The translations under genes were made by a program, and so were the position numbers. From Emcibacter nanhaiensis (GTDB lineage Bacteria; Pseudomonadota; Alphaproteobacteria; Sphingomonadales; Emcibacteraceae): a stretch of DNA of 64,000 bases. The first letter of the stretch is position 1; each line of letters opens with the position of its first letter. Where the stretch lies: assembly GCF_006385175.1 (NCBI RefSeq), contig NZ_VFIY01000010.1:1-64000 (forward strand), in the 5' to 3' direction. Below are positions 23,513-48,815 of the stretch, piece after piece. The notes below the pieces were generated by a model, which saw only the letters and a list, made by a program, of their open reading frames with translations, was not told where the DNA came from and ran no database searches.

Positions 23513-25391
23513 ATCCGCGGTTGGCGGCGGATCTTGCCACGTCGAGGAAATAGCTTTCGGTAAACATGGAGCCCTGCGTCTGCCGGACGACACGACGTGC
23601 CGGGAAAGTAACACTGACCGTCGTGCCAAGCCCCCATTCACTCTCGATCCCGATTTTGCCTTCATGGAGTTCGGCAAAAGCCCGCACCAGGGACAAGCCG
23701 AGACCTGTGCCCTGGTGCTCCTTGGCATAACTGTTGTCCACCTGCTGGAAGGGATTAAGCACCTCTTCAAGCTCTTCCTCATCGATTCCTATACCGTTAT
23801 CGGATACAGACAACACACAACGGCCCTTTTCATCCAGCCGGGCAGAAATGACAACCTCGCCGCCGGCTGGTGTAAATTTGACAGAATTTGACAGAAGATT
23901 AACCAGGATCTGAATGATCATCCTGTCGTCCGCAATCAAGTGCGGCATGGTTTCCGGAATATGCTGATGTATCGTGATATTTTTCTTTCTTGCCTGAGGG
24001 GCAATCAGTTTGCTGGCATGTTCCGCCGTTTCAATCAGATCGACACTCTTTTCATCCAGTTCCATATGCCCGGCCTCAACCTTGGCCAGATCAAGGATAT
24101 CATTAATAATATTGAGCAGATGATGGCCGCTGTCCCTGATATCCCCTGCATATTCCTTCATTTTTTCTTCCCGGTTCATGCCGATGAAATCACTGGTGAG
24201 TATTTCGGAAAAACCGATGATCGCATTAAGCGGCGTGCGGAGTTCATGACTCATATTGGCCAGGAATTCAGACTTGGCCCGGTTGGCGGATTCCGCTGTT
24301 TTTTTCGCCCGGGCCAACTCTTCCAGAAGCTGGTTTTTCTCGATCTGATAATCCACAACCCGCTTCAGGCTCCGGCTCAACTTGCCAAGGGAATCGTCGG
24401 TGGCAGGGGGGATTTCCACATCGGTATTGCCCCGTACAATCATGTTCAATGCGTGGGAAACCTGCCTGATCCTCTCAAGCACCCCGACACGCAGGAGATA
24501 ATTGCCGAGAATCCAGACGGCCGCCGCGCCCAAAATGGCGAAAAGGATACTGTAGGTCCGGATGGTATTTTCCTGGAGCCGGACCAGTTCTTCATCGACA
24601 TATACCCTCAGGTGTAACTGGTCGTTATAGGGTTCCCCGGCAATATTGAGCGACAGATCCAGCGGCCTGATATATTCGGCGAGCTTTTCGCGCTGGTCCG
24701 CATCATAGAACAGATCCTGGAAGATAGTTTGTCCCTGGTCATTGAGGATATGGAGATCCCCTTTAATGATTTTCGCAAGTCCGGAAAATACGATCAGGGG
24801 TGTGGTTACAATCACCAGCCTGGTTCCGTTCTCCTGCGGCTGATGGTACAGGTGATAAGGCACCCCCTTATCGGATCTGCCATAGAAATCCTTAGAGACG
24901 ACAGGATCAAGGCTCTCAACTATCTCCTGGAGTCTGCCCTGTGCTATTTGTGCCGAGACGAAATCGTTCAGGTCCCATGCGCCGATCACTTCATTCGAGC
25001 GATCATAAATTCTCAGCGTCGCCATATTGTGATGTTGGGCGTCATCCTCGAATACAGCCATTCGTTCCGCCAGATTTTTTTCGACACCTGTCCTGTCCTG
25101 CAACTGGTCTGTGGTCAGGTCGAAGAAACCCGACCTTGAGAGAAATTCAAGGAAATTCCGGAGTTTTTCCTCACTATGATCGTGAAGTCGGTCCCTGACC
25201 ATAACCCGCAAGAGATATTCCGTGCTCTCCTGCGACCTGCCCGAAATGAAATCTGTATAGTTCTTGATGGAATAAAAATGAGAAAACAGAAACATCATCG
25301 CCATCATCAGCATCAGGATGAAGAATACTGTCCTGACCTTCAAACGCCGGAAAAACCGGCCAATTCCCTGCGATAGCTCGTGGTTGTCCAT
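23511..25391 (-). CDS. Membrane sensor histidine kinase
   Basis: 626 residues from the ATG at 25391 (a TTG nine codons upstream is possible). TM1 is at about 20-42; an unrecognised periplasmic sensor domain of about 240 residues follows; TM2 is at about 285-310; then HAMP-like sequence and a coiled coil. HisKA contains SHELRTP with phospho-acceptor His382; the ATPase domain has N-box [10 protein letters not shown]1 DNGIGID and G2 GTGLGLSL. There is no receiver domain and no response-regulator gene beside it, so its partner must be elsewhere. Confidence 0.92.
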
Positions 25392-46149: not shown

Positions 46150-46695
46150 TCAGACGGCTTCGACGCTTTCCACTTCGGGAATATAGTGTTTCAGAAGATT
46201 CTGAATGCCGTATTTCAGGGTCGCCGTTGAACTGGGACACCCGGCACAGGCACCCTGCATATGCAGATAGACAATGCCGTCGCTAAACGCATGGAATACA
46301 ATATCGCCGCCGTCCCGTGCGACCGCCGGCCGTACCCGGGTTTCAAGCAGTTCCTTGATCTGAGTGACGATCTCATCGTCTTCCCCGCTGCTCTCGGGCA
46401 CTTCTGCCGCCACTTTTTCCATCACCGGAAGCCCGGCGGTGAAATGCTCCATGATTGTACCGAGGATCACGGGCTTGAGTTCAGCCCAGTCCCGTCCATC
46501 GCTGGTAATGGTGATAAAGTCATAGCCGAAAAATACACCTGCCACACCGTCAACGGCAAACAAGGCCTTTGCCAGTGGTGAACCGGCGGCATCCTCCACA
46601 CGTGTAAAGTTTGCCGTTCCCTGTTCCAGCACGGTCTCGCCCGGCAGGAACTTTAACGTAGCCGGATTCGGCGTCTGCTCTGTCTGAATAAACAT
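46150..46695 (-). CDS. NifU/NFU1-type iron-sulfur scaffold protein
   Basis: 181 residues from the ATG at 46695, with CAGGG upstream. The NFU N-terminal domain (MFIQTEQTPNPATLKFLPG) and the C-terminal NifU domain with CAGCPSS (C-x2-C) are both complete. Dimers hold a [4Fe-4S] cluster and deliver it to target enzymes; MiaB in this window is a plausible client. In many alphaproteobacterial genomes it lies near trpS and usp; here two extra genes separate it. Confidence 0.92.
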   Translation of the reverse strand: MFIQTEQTPNPATLKFLPGETVLEQGTANFTRVEDAAGSPLAKALFAVDGVAGVFFGYDFITITSDGRDWAELKPVILGTIMEHFTAGLPVMEKVAAEVPESSGEDDEIVTQIKELLETRVRPAVARDGGDIVFHAFSDGIVYLHMQGACAGCPSSTATLKYGIQNLLKHYIPEVESVEAV

Positions 46696-46764
46696 TATTA
46701 TACCCTGAGTTTGTTTTCTCTTAAATGGCAAGGGAACGGCCGAAAATCAAGTATCTTTCGGTCT

Positions 46765-46794
46765 TTTGTTAACAAATACTATGCTATATATGTA
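46765..46794 (+). promoter_or_regulatory. Promoter with palindrome upstream of the first solute-binding-like gene
   Basis: TTTGTTAACAAA (46765-46776) is a perfect 12-bp palindrome that overlaps a -35-like TTGTTA (46766-46771). A 17-bp spacer leads to TATGTA (46789-46794) within TATATATGTAT. A CCGAAA/TTTCGG stem (46740-46761) lies just before it. Repressor control of the solute-binding-like gene is plausible. Confidence 0.5.
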
Positions 46795-46825
46795 TCTTGT
46801 CTGATCCGGGATTCGGGACTGAATA

Positions 46826-47530
46826 ATGCGTTTTTGCCGAAACATCATAGTCTTCTTCCTAAGTCTTCCGTTTTCTGTGGTGTGCGCCATGGCGGAAGAG
46901 ACAAACAGTTCGCGCGAGAATATCCGTATCTGCATTCCCCTCGAACTCTATTACGCCGAAGAACTTAAGGCCCTGATCTCACAGTCTTATCAGGACCTGA
47001 ACCTGACAATTGAATGGCATGTCCTGCCGGTTAACCGCTGCGTCATGATGGTCAGCCAGGGCATTCTTGATGCGGACATCGGCAGGAGCCCGGTCGTTAC
47101 GACAAAATACCCCAACCTGGTTTCAGTTCCCGTGCAACTTTTCTCCGCTGACGTAAATCTCTACAGCCTGGCGCCGCCGGACGACCCTGTCCCGGATCCG
47201 CAAACACTGCTTTCGGATCACCGGTATCGTGTTGCCTACCCCTCCCATCTTCTCCATGTCAGGAATATGGCGGCAAGTCACAGCACGCTGGGCGCCGACA
47301 GTGCGGATCAGATGATTGCCCTGCTCCGGAAAGGCCGGGTTGATTACATTTTGATTAGTGCGACAGAGGCCGAAAAGATGGAGAACAACGGAAAAGCCAT
47401 GACCGGCCTTTATCAGATACAAAAGGCCTATATTAGAATCCCCGGCCATCACATTCTGAACCGCAAACACGAAGGCCTTGCCGCGGAACTGGCCAAGGGT
47501 TTCCGTCAAAGGCTGGAAACACCGGACTAA
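46826..47530 (+). CDS. Periplasmic solute-binding-like protein, first of two tandem paralogues
   Basis: 234 residues. A signal peptide (FFLSLPFSVVCAMA) is followed by a fold that resembles the extracellular solute-binding family 3: ICIPLELYYAEELKALI at the N-terminus, GILDADIGRSP, then VAYPSHLL and GRVDYILISATEAEKM in the second lobe. Two cysteines of the mature protein, Cys36 and Cys72, are 36 apart and may form a disulfide. No permease or ATPase gene is near. It may serve as a sensor or ligand-binding partner for another system. Paralogue of the next gene. Confidence 0.75.
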   Translation: MRFCRNIIVFFLSLPFSVVCAMAEETNSSRENIRICIPLELYYAEELKALISQSYQDLNLTIEWHVLPVNRCVMMVSQGILDADIGRSPVVTTKYPNLVSVPVQLFSADVNLYSLAPPDDPVPDPQTLLSDHRYRVAYPSHLLHVRNMAASHSTLGADSADQMIALLRKGRVDYILISATEAEKMENNGKAMTGLYQIQKAYIRIPGHHILNRKHEGLAAELAKGFRQRLETPD

Positions 47531-47533
47531 CCT

Positions 47534-47560
47534 GAATAGTGGATTTACCATACACTATTC
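47534..47560. repeat. 8-bp stem between the tandem paralogues
   Basis: GAATAGTG (47534-47541) and CACTATTC (47553-47560) are perfect inverted copies with an 11-nt loop, four bases after the first stop codon. There is no T-run, so it may act as a processing or stability element between the two genes rather than a full terminator. Confidence 0.5.
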
Positions 47561-47596
47561 ACTCGCATAGATTGTCATATTCTTATATGATGACGT

Positions 47597-48340
47597 ATGA
47601 TAAAAGTTTCGGGTGCTATTTCACTTTACCGCAAAATGGCGTGGATCATCAGTCTTACATTGATCCTGCAGGCTTTTTCAATACGGGCGGTAAATTCTGA
47701 AACTGCTGGGAAACCGTTCGATATCTGCACTCCCCTGGAACTCACGTACAGTGTTGGCCTTCGGGATATCGTTGAAAAATCTTACAGGGAATTCGGCTAT
47801 GATGTCCACTGGCATATCCTGCCGGCCAACAGGTGCATCGCCATGGTGGACAGGGGCATCCTGGATGCCGACCTGGTTCGTACGACATCTGTGATAGAGC
47901 ACTATCAAAACCTGATCCTCATTCCGGTGCGGTTGATAACCATAAAAATCGACCTTTACGGCATAAAACGCCCTGATGTACCGCCACCTGAACCGGAAAT
48001 ACTGCTTGCGGATGAAAACATAGCTGTCGCCTACCCGCGAAACTCCCTGTTGATCGAAAAAATGGTCAAAAATCCGGCCTCCATCGGCACGGATGACGGA
48101 GCCCATATGCTGAAATTGCTCCGGAACGGCAGAGTGCGACTGATACTGCTGCCAAAGGTTGAGCTCAATCGTCTGCAAAAGAAAGGTGTTGATATGAGTG
48201 ACCTGGTCCTGATCAGGGAAAATTACATAGAGTACCCTGGCTTTCACGTCGTCAACAGAAAACACAAAGACCTGGTTGACCGACTGGCCGCTAAATTCCT
48301 GCCCGCAATTGCCGAAGCCAATATCCCCGGAAAACAATAA
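47597..48340 (+). CDS. Periplasmic solute-binding-like protein, second of two tandem paralogues
   Basis: 247 residues: signal sequence (AWIISLTLILQAFSIRA), then the same layout as its neighbour. Matching pairs include ICTPLEL/ICIPLEL, HILPANRC/HVLPVNRC, GILDADL/GILDADI, GRVRLIL/GRVDYIL and a PGFHVVNRKHKDL/PGHHILNRKHEGL end. Cys44 and Cys80 are again 36 apart. It looks like a local duplication that has since diverged. The ligand is unknown and no transporter genes are adjacent. It converges on the usp gene with a 1-bp gap. Confidence 0.75.
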   Translation: MIKVSGAISLYRKMAWIISLTLILQAFSIRAVNSETAGKPFDICTPLELTYSVGLRDIVEKSYREFGYDVHWHILPANRCIAMVDRGILDADLVRTTSVIEHYQNLILIPVRLITIKIDLYGIKRPDVPPPEPEILLADENIAVAYPRNSLLIEKMVKNPASIGTDDGAHMLKLLRNGRVRLILLPKVELNRLQKKGVDMSDLVLIRENYIEYPGFHVVNRKHKDLVDRLAAKFLPAIAEANIPGKQ

Positions 48341-48341
48341 C

Positions 48342-48815
48342 TTAGACGAATTTGTCGATTTCCTCGTCCGTCATGTTGCCGGGCACCACAAGCACCGGCA
48401 TATGACAAACATCCAGCAGTTCCTCGCGAAAAATCCGGATCAGGGGCCCGGGATCCCCGCCGACGTCAGCGCCAAGCACCAGGAGGTGGACGTCCATATC
48501 TTCCCTGATATAGTCAACGATGACATCCTTGGGATCGCCGGAGCGTATAACAAGTTCGGGCGTCATACCGGACAGGACTTCAACGTCCCGGGCAAAACCA
48601 TTCATCATCCCTTCCGCTTCCTGACGCGCCTCTTCTTCCATCAGCTCGCGGACACTGACCCAGTGCTGGAAATCGGCAGGGGGAATAATGTGCAGCATGA
48701 CTACACTGCCGCCCACCTTTGATGCCCGCAAAGCAGCGAGGCGAAGAACTTTCTTGAACTCAGGTGTATCGTCAGCGATCACCAGAAACTTCCATTTGCG
48801 GTCCGTCAGGGCCAT
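48342..48815 (-). CDS. Universal stress protein (UspA domain)
   Basis: 157 residues. KWKFLVIADDTPEFKKVLRLAALRA is the first strand and helix of the Usp fold, and LLVLGADVGGDPG near residue 115 is at the position of the G-2x-G-9x-G(S/T) nucleotide loop, though the final part differs from the ATP-binding consensus. Stress-related and cytoplasmic; the exact role is unknown. It is at the end of the DUF2333-linked group, on the same strand. Confidence 0.85.
   Translation of the reverse strand: MALTDRKWKFLVIADDTPEFKKVLRLAALRASKVGGSVVMLHIIPPADFQHWVSVRELMEEEARQEAEGMMNGFARDVEVLSGMTPELVIRSGDPKDVIVDYIREDMDVHLLVLGADVGGDPGPLIRIFREELLDVCHMPVLVVPGNMTDEEIDKFV

Follow-up and report, generated by a model that had tools for sequence, protein, structure and literature searches.

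The window (the whole 64,000-nucleotide stretch of Emcibacter nanhaiensis DNA that was analysed) contains two adjacent genes for solute-binding-protein-like (SBP-like) products, set between a nifU and a uspA gene. The features of the locus are:

46150..46695, minus strand: NifU/Nfu-type Fe-S scaffold; flanking gene, outside the system
46696..48341, no strand assigned: stretch between nifU and uspA holding the pair, from the nifU-locus comparison
46826..47530, plus strand: SBP-like gene 1; 234 aa; putative exported two-lobe binding protein; C36/C72
47531..47596, plus strand: intergenic stretch; two predicted hairpins; possible terminator or operator
47597..48340, plus strand: SBP-like gene 2; 247 aa; tandem paralogue of gene 1; C44/C80
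48342..48815, minus strand: universal stress protein; flanking gene, outside the system

The two ORFs are separated by 66 bp and their products share 35% identity, with gaps confined to near both ends of the alignment; at a phmmer E-value of about 3e-52 for protein 1 against protein 2, their likeness is not due to chance. The sequence-only reading had described them as adjacent paralogues of the same layout, and this description holds, as do all four signatures that it named: IC.PLEL, H.LP.NRC, GILDAD and PG.H..NRKH recur in proteins 1 and 2 as ICIPLEL and ICTPLEL, HVLPVNRC and HILPANRC, GILDAD in each, and PGHHILNRKH and PGFHVVNRKH, respectively. Both products are probably exported, as judged solely by a hydropathy window: the N-terminal 12-residue mean is 2.52 in protein 1 (clear) and 1.97 in protein 2 (weaker), and 69 of the 75 rows of the family alignment have a stretch of at least 2.0 within the first 70 residues. 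In the intergenic stretch, the first hairpin corresponds to the inverted repeat 47533-47544/47550-47561, while the second extends to the start of gene 2, and the region covering them (47520-47610) has a folding z of -3.0. The first inverted repeat recurs in 7 of 254 loci, all 7 being copies of the same stretch, and in none of the fetched loci outside it. A sigma-70-like match at 47572-47601 is a consensus match only, and an RNA element is not supported, as nothing in 46600-48500 reaches the gathering threshold of an Rfam model.

Neither protein matches any Pfam family at E up to 10, and hence neither belongs to SBP_bac_3 (PF00497) by a match of its own. The lone NCBIfam match for the two is to an aldo-keto reductase (protein 1, E 0.073), and the search of the PDB by sequence, run with protein 1, again returned an aldo-keto reductase (E 1.6); both are insignificant and this identity was rejected. 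Thus, the profile search that had been proposed as a test capable of refuting a binding-protein identity yielded no significant enzyme family in Pfam or NCBIfam. Genome searches matched protein 1 in 14 of the 385 genomes from its class and protein 2 in 2 of 60 from near relatives, each count including E. nanhaiensis itself. The family link emerges at the level of the 29 aligned members (both twins included), 15 of which have an SBP_bac_3 match with E no higher than 1 (5e-14 for the best), and a profile built from all 29 recovers amino-acid-binding proteins from the PDB, the best being 4zv1 at 5.4e-22. Apart from its twin, the other 27 members are only 14-25% identical to protein 1. DNA-pattern searches found no close relatives in viral contigs and none in genome contigs with the pair alignment, as the family is too divergent for DNA-level seeds, and tblastn with protein 1 found none in plasmids. 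As judged from the family profile and the structural models, the twins are divergent relatives of the SBP_bac_3 amino-acid-binding lineage.

AlphaFold models of proteins 1 and 2 (mean pLDDT 90.4 and 92.1) both show a two-lobe, type II-like periplasmic binding protein fold, so that the second proposed refutation, by structure prediction, likewise went in favour of the original assignment. With an E-value limit of 0.001, Foldseek retrieved 937 PDB chains for protein 1 and 860 for protein 2 (the latter with E 7.4e-12), and the best 50 rows for each are nearly all binding proteins or sensor domains of the same fold; GloR (protein 1) and two LysR regulators, CbnR and RipR (protein 2), are the exceptions. 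With VIA-align, run on protein 1, GluR0 (1ii5) and the sensor domain of a histidine kinase (3h7m) share first place at Z 17.6, with rmsd 3.7 and 3.6, respectively, across 200 residues; GlnBP entries follow at Z 17.1-17.2, and rows within 1 Z are tied. In the profile alignment to 4zv1, which is distant and uncertain, the arginine of 'TITEER', which we take to be the usual ligand-carboxylate-binding residue (R77 of LAO), corresponds to K94 in protein 1 and a histidine in protein 2, and this column is an arginine in 12 of the 75 family rows. Other positions are better conserved in the same rows (R71 in 68, D82 in 68 and R87 in 51), which suggests a reshaped ligand site with its arginines moved.

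C36/C72 of protein 1 and C44/C80 of protein 2 are the sole cysteines beyond residue 25, and their separation of exactly 36 residues in each twin, noticed already in the earlier reading, is a consequence of paralogy, since the cysteine stretch aligns gap-free. A third copy in the same genome again has a spacing of 36, and six other pair-bearing members have spacings of 44-50. The two columns were also compared over 75 different ORFs of 190-340 aa, drawn from 159 matching ORFs after leaving out duplicates and ORFs outside this length range, fused proteins among them: both cysteines are present in nine, the first alone in one, the second alone in none and neither in 65 (Fisher's test, 8e-11, uncorrected for relatedness). 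The nine with both are scattered over several parts of the tree, with spacings from 36 to 50. This co-occurrence supports the shared disulfide that had been suggested for the twins; going by the secondary structure of the AlphaFold models, the predicted bond would join strand 1 with the helix that follows strand 2.

The five scanned neighbours of the pair (NifU-type Fe-S scaffold, universal stress protein, polysaccharide deacetylase, DUF2333 and DUF4136) include no transporter, kinase or receptor, consistent with the earlier remark that no permease, ATPase, kinase or receptor lies next door. The genome encodes four family proteins (five matches, two of them within one ORF): besides the twins, there is the third copy, at C18:32784, which shares their cysteines, and a less closely related protein at C18:118901, which scores 24.4 against SBP_bac_3 (cut-off 26.4). 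Of the genes up to two places away from either of these, none was flagged as a kinase, GGDEF, chemoreceptor or ABC gene. Co-occurrence with kinases and transporters, the check that had been proposed, was followed in 40 long loci of relatives (20 + 20 fetched, a subset of all matches; neighbours within 400 bases). Adjacent genes on the same strand encode a histidine kinase in two, a chemoreceptor in one, an ABC ATPase-like protein in one and, most commonly, a LysR regulator in 13, all from one family of the same order (f5); one further LysR gene lies on the opposite strand, and the remaining 22 loci have none of these genes. Pfam confirms both kinases, the chemoreceptor and five of the LysR genes. 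This neighbour, a cytoplasmic regulator, is no proof of sensing by the SBP. Transporter-like genes occur near a few relatives: in G099 (locus L069) and G225 (L075) the family gene stands behind similar upstream transporter-like genes, for which the Pfam scan of G099, the source of these domains, gives BPD_transp_1 twice and NMT1, and in G098 one family gene precedes the ABC ATPase-like gene. By this gene order, transport may be the role of some relatives. On the other side of the family gene in L069 is an amidohydrolase gene, and our guess is that L069 and L075 represent a setting of pyrimidine or hydantoin breakdown, possibly.

A different architecture is seen in three genomes of the same bacterial family as the window (G023, G011 and G004), where ORFs of about 800 residues (in loci L037, L038 and L043), scanned as examples, combine two SBP_bac_3 stretches with HisKA and HATPase_c in a BvgS-like layout. 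These three genomes do possess permeases that match TIGR01726, a family of 3-TM permeases from importers of polar amino acids.

That the twins lack a transporter, as the sequence-only reading had it, is borne out across the whole genome for the transporter class in question, to the extent that profile searches can show. The assembly (3.96 Mb, 98.74% complete) has no match to TIGR01726 and three to PF00528, whereas the same searches found these models in 12 of 14 and 14 of 14 control genomes, respectively. Above cut-off, NCBIfam identifies one ModB and one PstC, with ModC, ModA and PstB alongside; the third PF00528 permease is presumably PstA, given its position between PstC and PstB. The three binding-protein-dependent permeases detected in the assembly belong to ModABC and PstCAB, and, within the sensitivity of these profiles, no cognate permease lies beside the pair or elsewhere in the genome. 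TIGR01726 is likewise absent from all five tested genomes of the same family or order with tandem family genes (G001, G448, G464, G479 and G454) and present in all five tested from other orders of the class. Across the 396 genomes of the order, PF00497 is found in 108 and TIGR01726 in 52 (37 above cut-off); in family f5, only one (G458) of the 28 genomes with PF00497, by hand count, also has TIGR01726. Absence in such searches is no proof, since divergent members can escape: the genome-wide search of E. nanhaiensis with PF00497 gave no match, yet direct hmmscan of the C18:118901 protein gives E 2.7e-5.

These data bear directly on the possibility that the twins serve uptake through a non-canonical permease in trans, either a secondary transporter or an ABC system that the profiles do not recognise. 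Such proteins primarily serve uptake (PMC11113362), the relatives in G099, G225 and G098 have the transporter-like neighbours described above, and the missed C18:118901 protein and the slight incompleteness of the assembly leave the genome search imperfect. Against this, the genome has no TIGR01726 permease and its PF00528 permeases are solely those of the molybdate and phosphate systems, while the repetition of the TIGR01726 gap in every tested tandem-bearing genome points to a general absence and not to a single overlooked gene. We regard uptake as unlikely.

With no fitting importer found, the simplest use for the twins is to present a ligand to a receptor. The reading that we favour, with a likelihood somewhat short of even, is that they are ligand sensors acting on a receptor encoded elsewhere. 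In the mechanism that we infer, they would be exported, disulfide-bearing, two-lobe SBP_bac_3-like proteins that no longer serve an ABC importer; each would close on a small periplasmic ligand, probably acidic or amino-acid-like, and the closed form would dock on the periplasmic domain of the distant receptor, most likely a histidine kinase, with the two copies perhaps differing in ligand. Activation of kinases, chemoreceptors and cyclic-di-GMP enzymes by SBPs is known (PMC11113362). The same paper has two implications for genes lying apart: chemoreceptor and SBP genes are adjacent in just three of 11 couples, whereas 10 of 11 characterised SBP-activated kinases have a genomically associated SBP gene, which would make a kinase encoded at a distance an unusual case. 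That paper also found that an SBP and a kinase encoded side by side do not necessarily interact (PMC11113362). Candidate receptors in the genome comprise 37 HisKA matches (36 above cut-off) and 12 GGDEF matches, and six of the 30 kinase loci read (L213, L217, L220, L221, L234 and L237) have a large loop, 100 residues or longer, between hydropathy-predicted membrane spans. That one of these is the 'distant system' that had been envisaged for the pair is a guess. In favour of sensing are the sensor-type structures GluR0 and 3h7m at the head of the structural list (tied with GlnBP entries), the kinase or chemoreceptor genes beside a few relatives, the SBP-kinase fusions of the same family and the near absence of TIGR01726 from f5 genomes with PF00497. 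It speaks against sensing that no receptor gene was flagged near any of the four family genes of this genome.

Within the window itself, a histidine kinase on the minus strand (24069-24278), some 23 kb from the pair, has a loop of about 154 residues between membrane spans predicted from hydropathy.

The lack of flagged partners beside the pair, the third copy and the fourth relative, along with the setting of the pair among housekeeping genes, would suit an accessory function in the periplasm that involves neither transport nor signalling, for instance scavenging, buffering or the regulation of an envelope enzyme. The SBP-like domain of MltF is a precedent for such a role, and one of the 29 members shows a weak match to MltF in NCBIfam (best E 0.013). 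We hold this account to be improbable: receptor genes adjoin some relatives, and the SBP-kinase fusions of the same family favour sensing. It is highly doubtful that the twins are enzymes derived from the binding-protein fold in the manner of cyclohexadienyl dehydratase, for although ancestral and modern dehydratases are among the matches of the family profile (5t0w, 5jos and 6wup) and the usual ligand-carboxylate arginine is not kept, plain binding proteins outscore them with that profile and neither protein has a significant enzyme match in Pfam or NCBIfam, nor protein 1 in the PDB.

Returning to the sensor reading, a broader version of it is possible, though we put it well below even likelihood: those parts of the order that are without polar-amino-acid importers may have kept binding proteins, and repeatedly duplicated them, as free-standing periplasmic sensors with a reshaped site, in some cases an extra disulfide and elsewhere ties to GcvA-type LysR regulators. 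If true, this would constitute a transporter-free sensing family that current profiles often miss.

The history of the locus was approached through the nifU neighbourhoods of 80 named records, whose titles are nearly all alphaproteobacterial; by E-value, the best nifU match among them is from an Emcibacter MAG (68% identity). These loci show a conserved block, complete in L087 and partial in the others, whose genes we take to be murJ, trpS, DUF4136, DUF2333, uspA, nifU, deacetylase, nitroreductase-like, tsaB, rimI, fur and plsC; the names of NifU, DUF2333, DUF4136, the deacetylase and the universal stress protein come from domain scans. None of the 80 nifU loci from other genomes, some of them short records, contains a family gene at E up to 0.01; uspA and nifU were both found in 72, where the gap between them has a median of 177 bases but in a few cases reaches 2.7 kb, and two ORF calls overlap. 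Given the absence of family genes from these loci, the pair appears to have been inserted in this lineage, with tandem duplication at the same time or afterwards. In the tree, the twins are sisters (support 100), for which reason we rejected, for the window, an old co-functional pair common to it and its relatives; the C18:32784 copy comes next (support 92). Of the 36 genomes represented in the tree, 10 have family genes in tandem (fetched loci only; hand count). The partners are sisters in five (the window, G357, G479, G454 and G032), the G098 copies form one clade, G448 and G464 share one pair, and the partners in G001 and G099 are non-sister. It is a quick tree in which long branches meet and 24 of 72 inner branches are open, which makes the deep order unsure. 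The case for a recent foreign origin by composition was likewise unconvincing, with GC3 at 62.1 and 56.5 for the twins, 61.0 for nifU, 65.2 for uspA and 69.3-76.7 for five other genes.

Among known systems, the SBP_bac_3 proteins of polar-amino-acid ABC importers (GlnBP, LAO and ArgBP) are like the twins in fold, length and profile-level homology, whereas the twins have no Pfam match of their own, a K or H in the arginine column and no detected cognate permease. SBP-type kinase sensor domains and the GluR0 core are as close structurally (1ii5 and 3h7m have the top Z, tied with GlnBP; BvgS VFT2 has 15.5), and fused versions exist in the same bacterial family, but the twins are free-standing, with no membrane or kinase part. 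The proposed principle, a binding protein employed in signaling, is that of NspS-MbaA, a free periplasmic polyamine sensor and its c-di-GMP receptor, with the difference that NspS has a known receptor, MbaA, and the twins have candidate receptors only. NspS is related to the polyamine-binding protein PotD. The orphan TctC/Bug expansions of Bordetella and Rhodoplanes similarly involve far more binding proteins than transporters, and sensing has been suggested for them (PMC5994714); however, they are a different family (TTT) and Bordetella retains up to four representatives of the membrane components (PMC5994714), whereas the E. nanhaiensis genome is without any detected cognate permease and has only four family members.

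Binding proteins outside transporter operons are already known (PMC9602780; PMC5994714), and among the matches listed in the literature on transporter-less binding proteins there was nothing on the twins' family. The present case departs from these in its family, a divergent SBP_bac_3 relative that Pfam misses in the twins, in the genome-wide lack of the cognate permease class and in repeated tandem duplication. The usual inference 'binding protein, therefore importer' appears to fail at the whole-genome level in this organism, since none of the four proteins could be paired with a matching importer. A sensing role, if true, would widen the set of proteins feeding bacterial receptors, and a genome with few ABC permeases would offer a clean background for finding the ligand and receptor.

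Two further associations were observed in the relatives' loci. In 13 of the 20 long loci from f5 (L193-L212), a LysR gene lies directly upstream, on the same strand, of a stand-alone binding-protein gene (e.g. L199, 5060-6702); all five scanned are GcvA-type, and in eight of the 13 the two ORFs, called from the most upstream start, overlap by 22-45 bases. A 250-aa ORF precedes the LysR gene in 11 of the 13, and the one scanned is a PAPS reductase, CysH. In G001, from the same bacterial family as the window, a gene for a PEP-CTERM sorting-domain protein is located just downstream of the adjacent pair of family genes (L063, 5713-6420).
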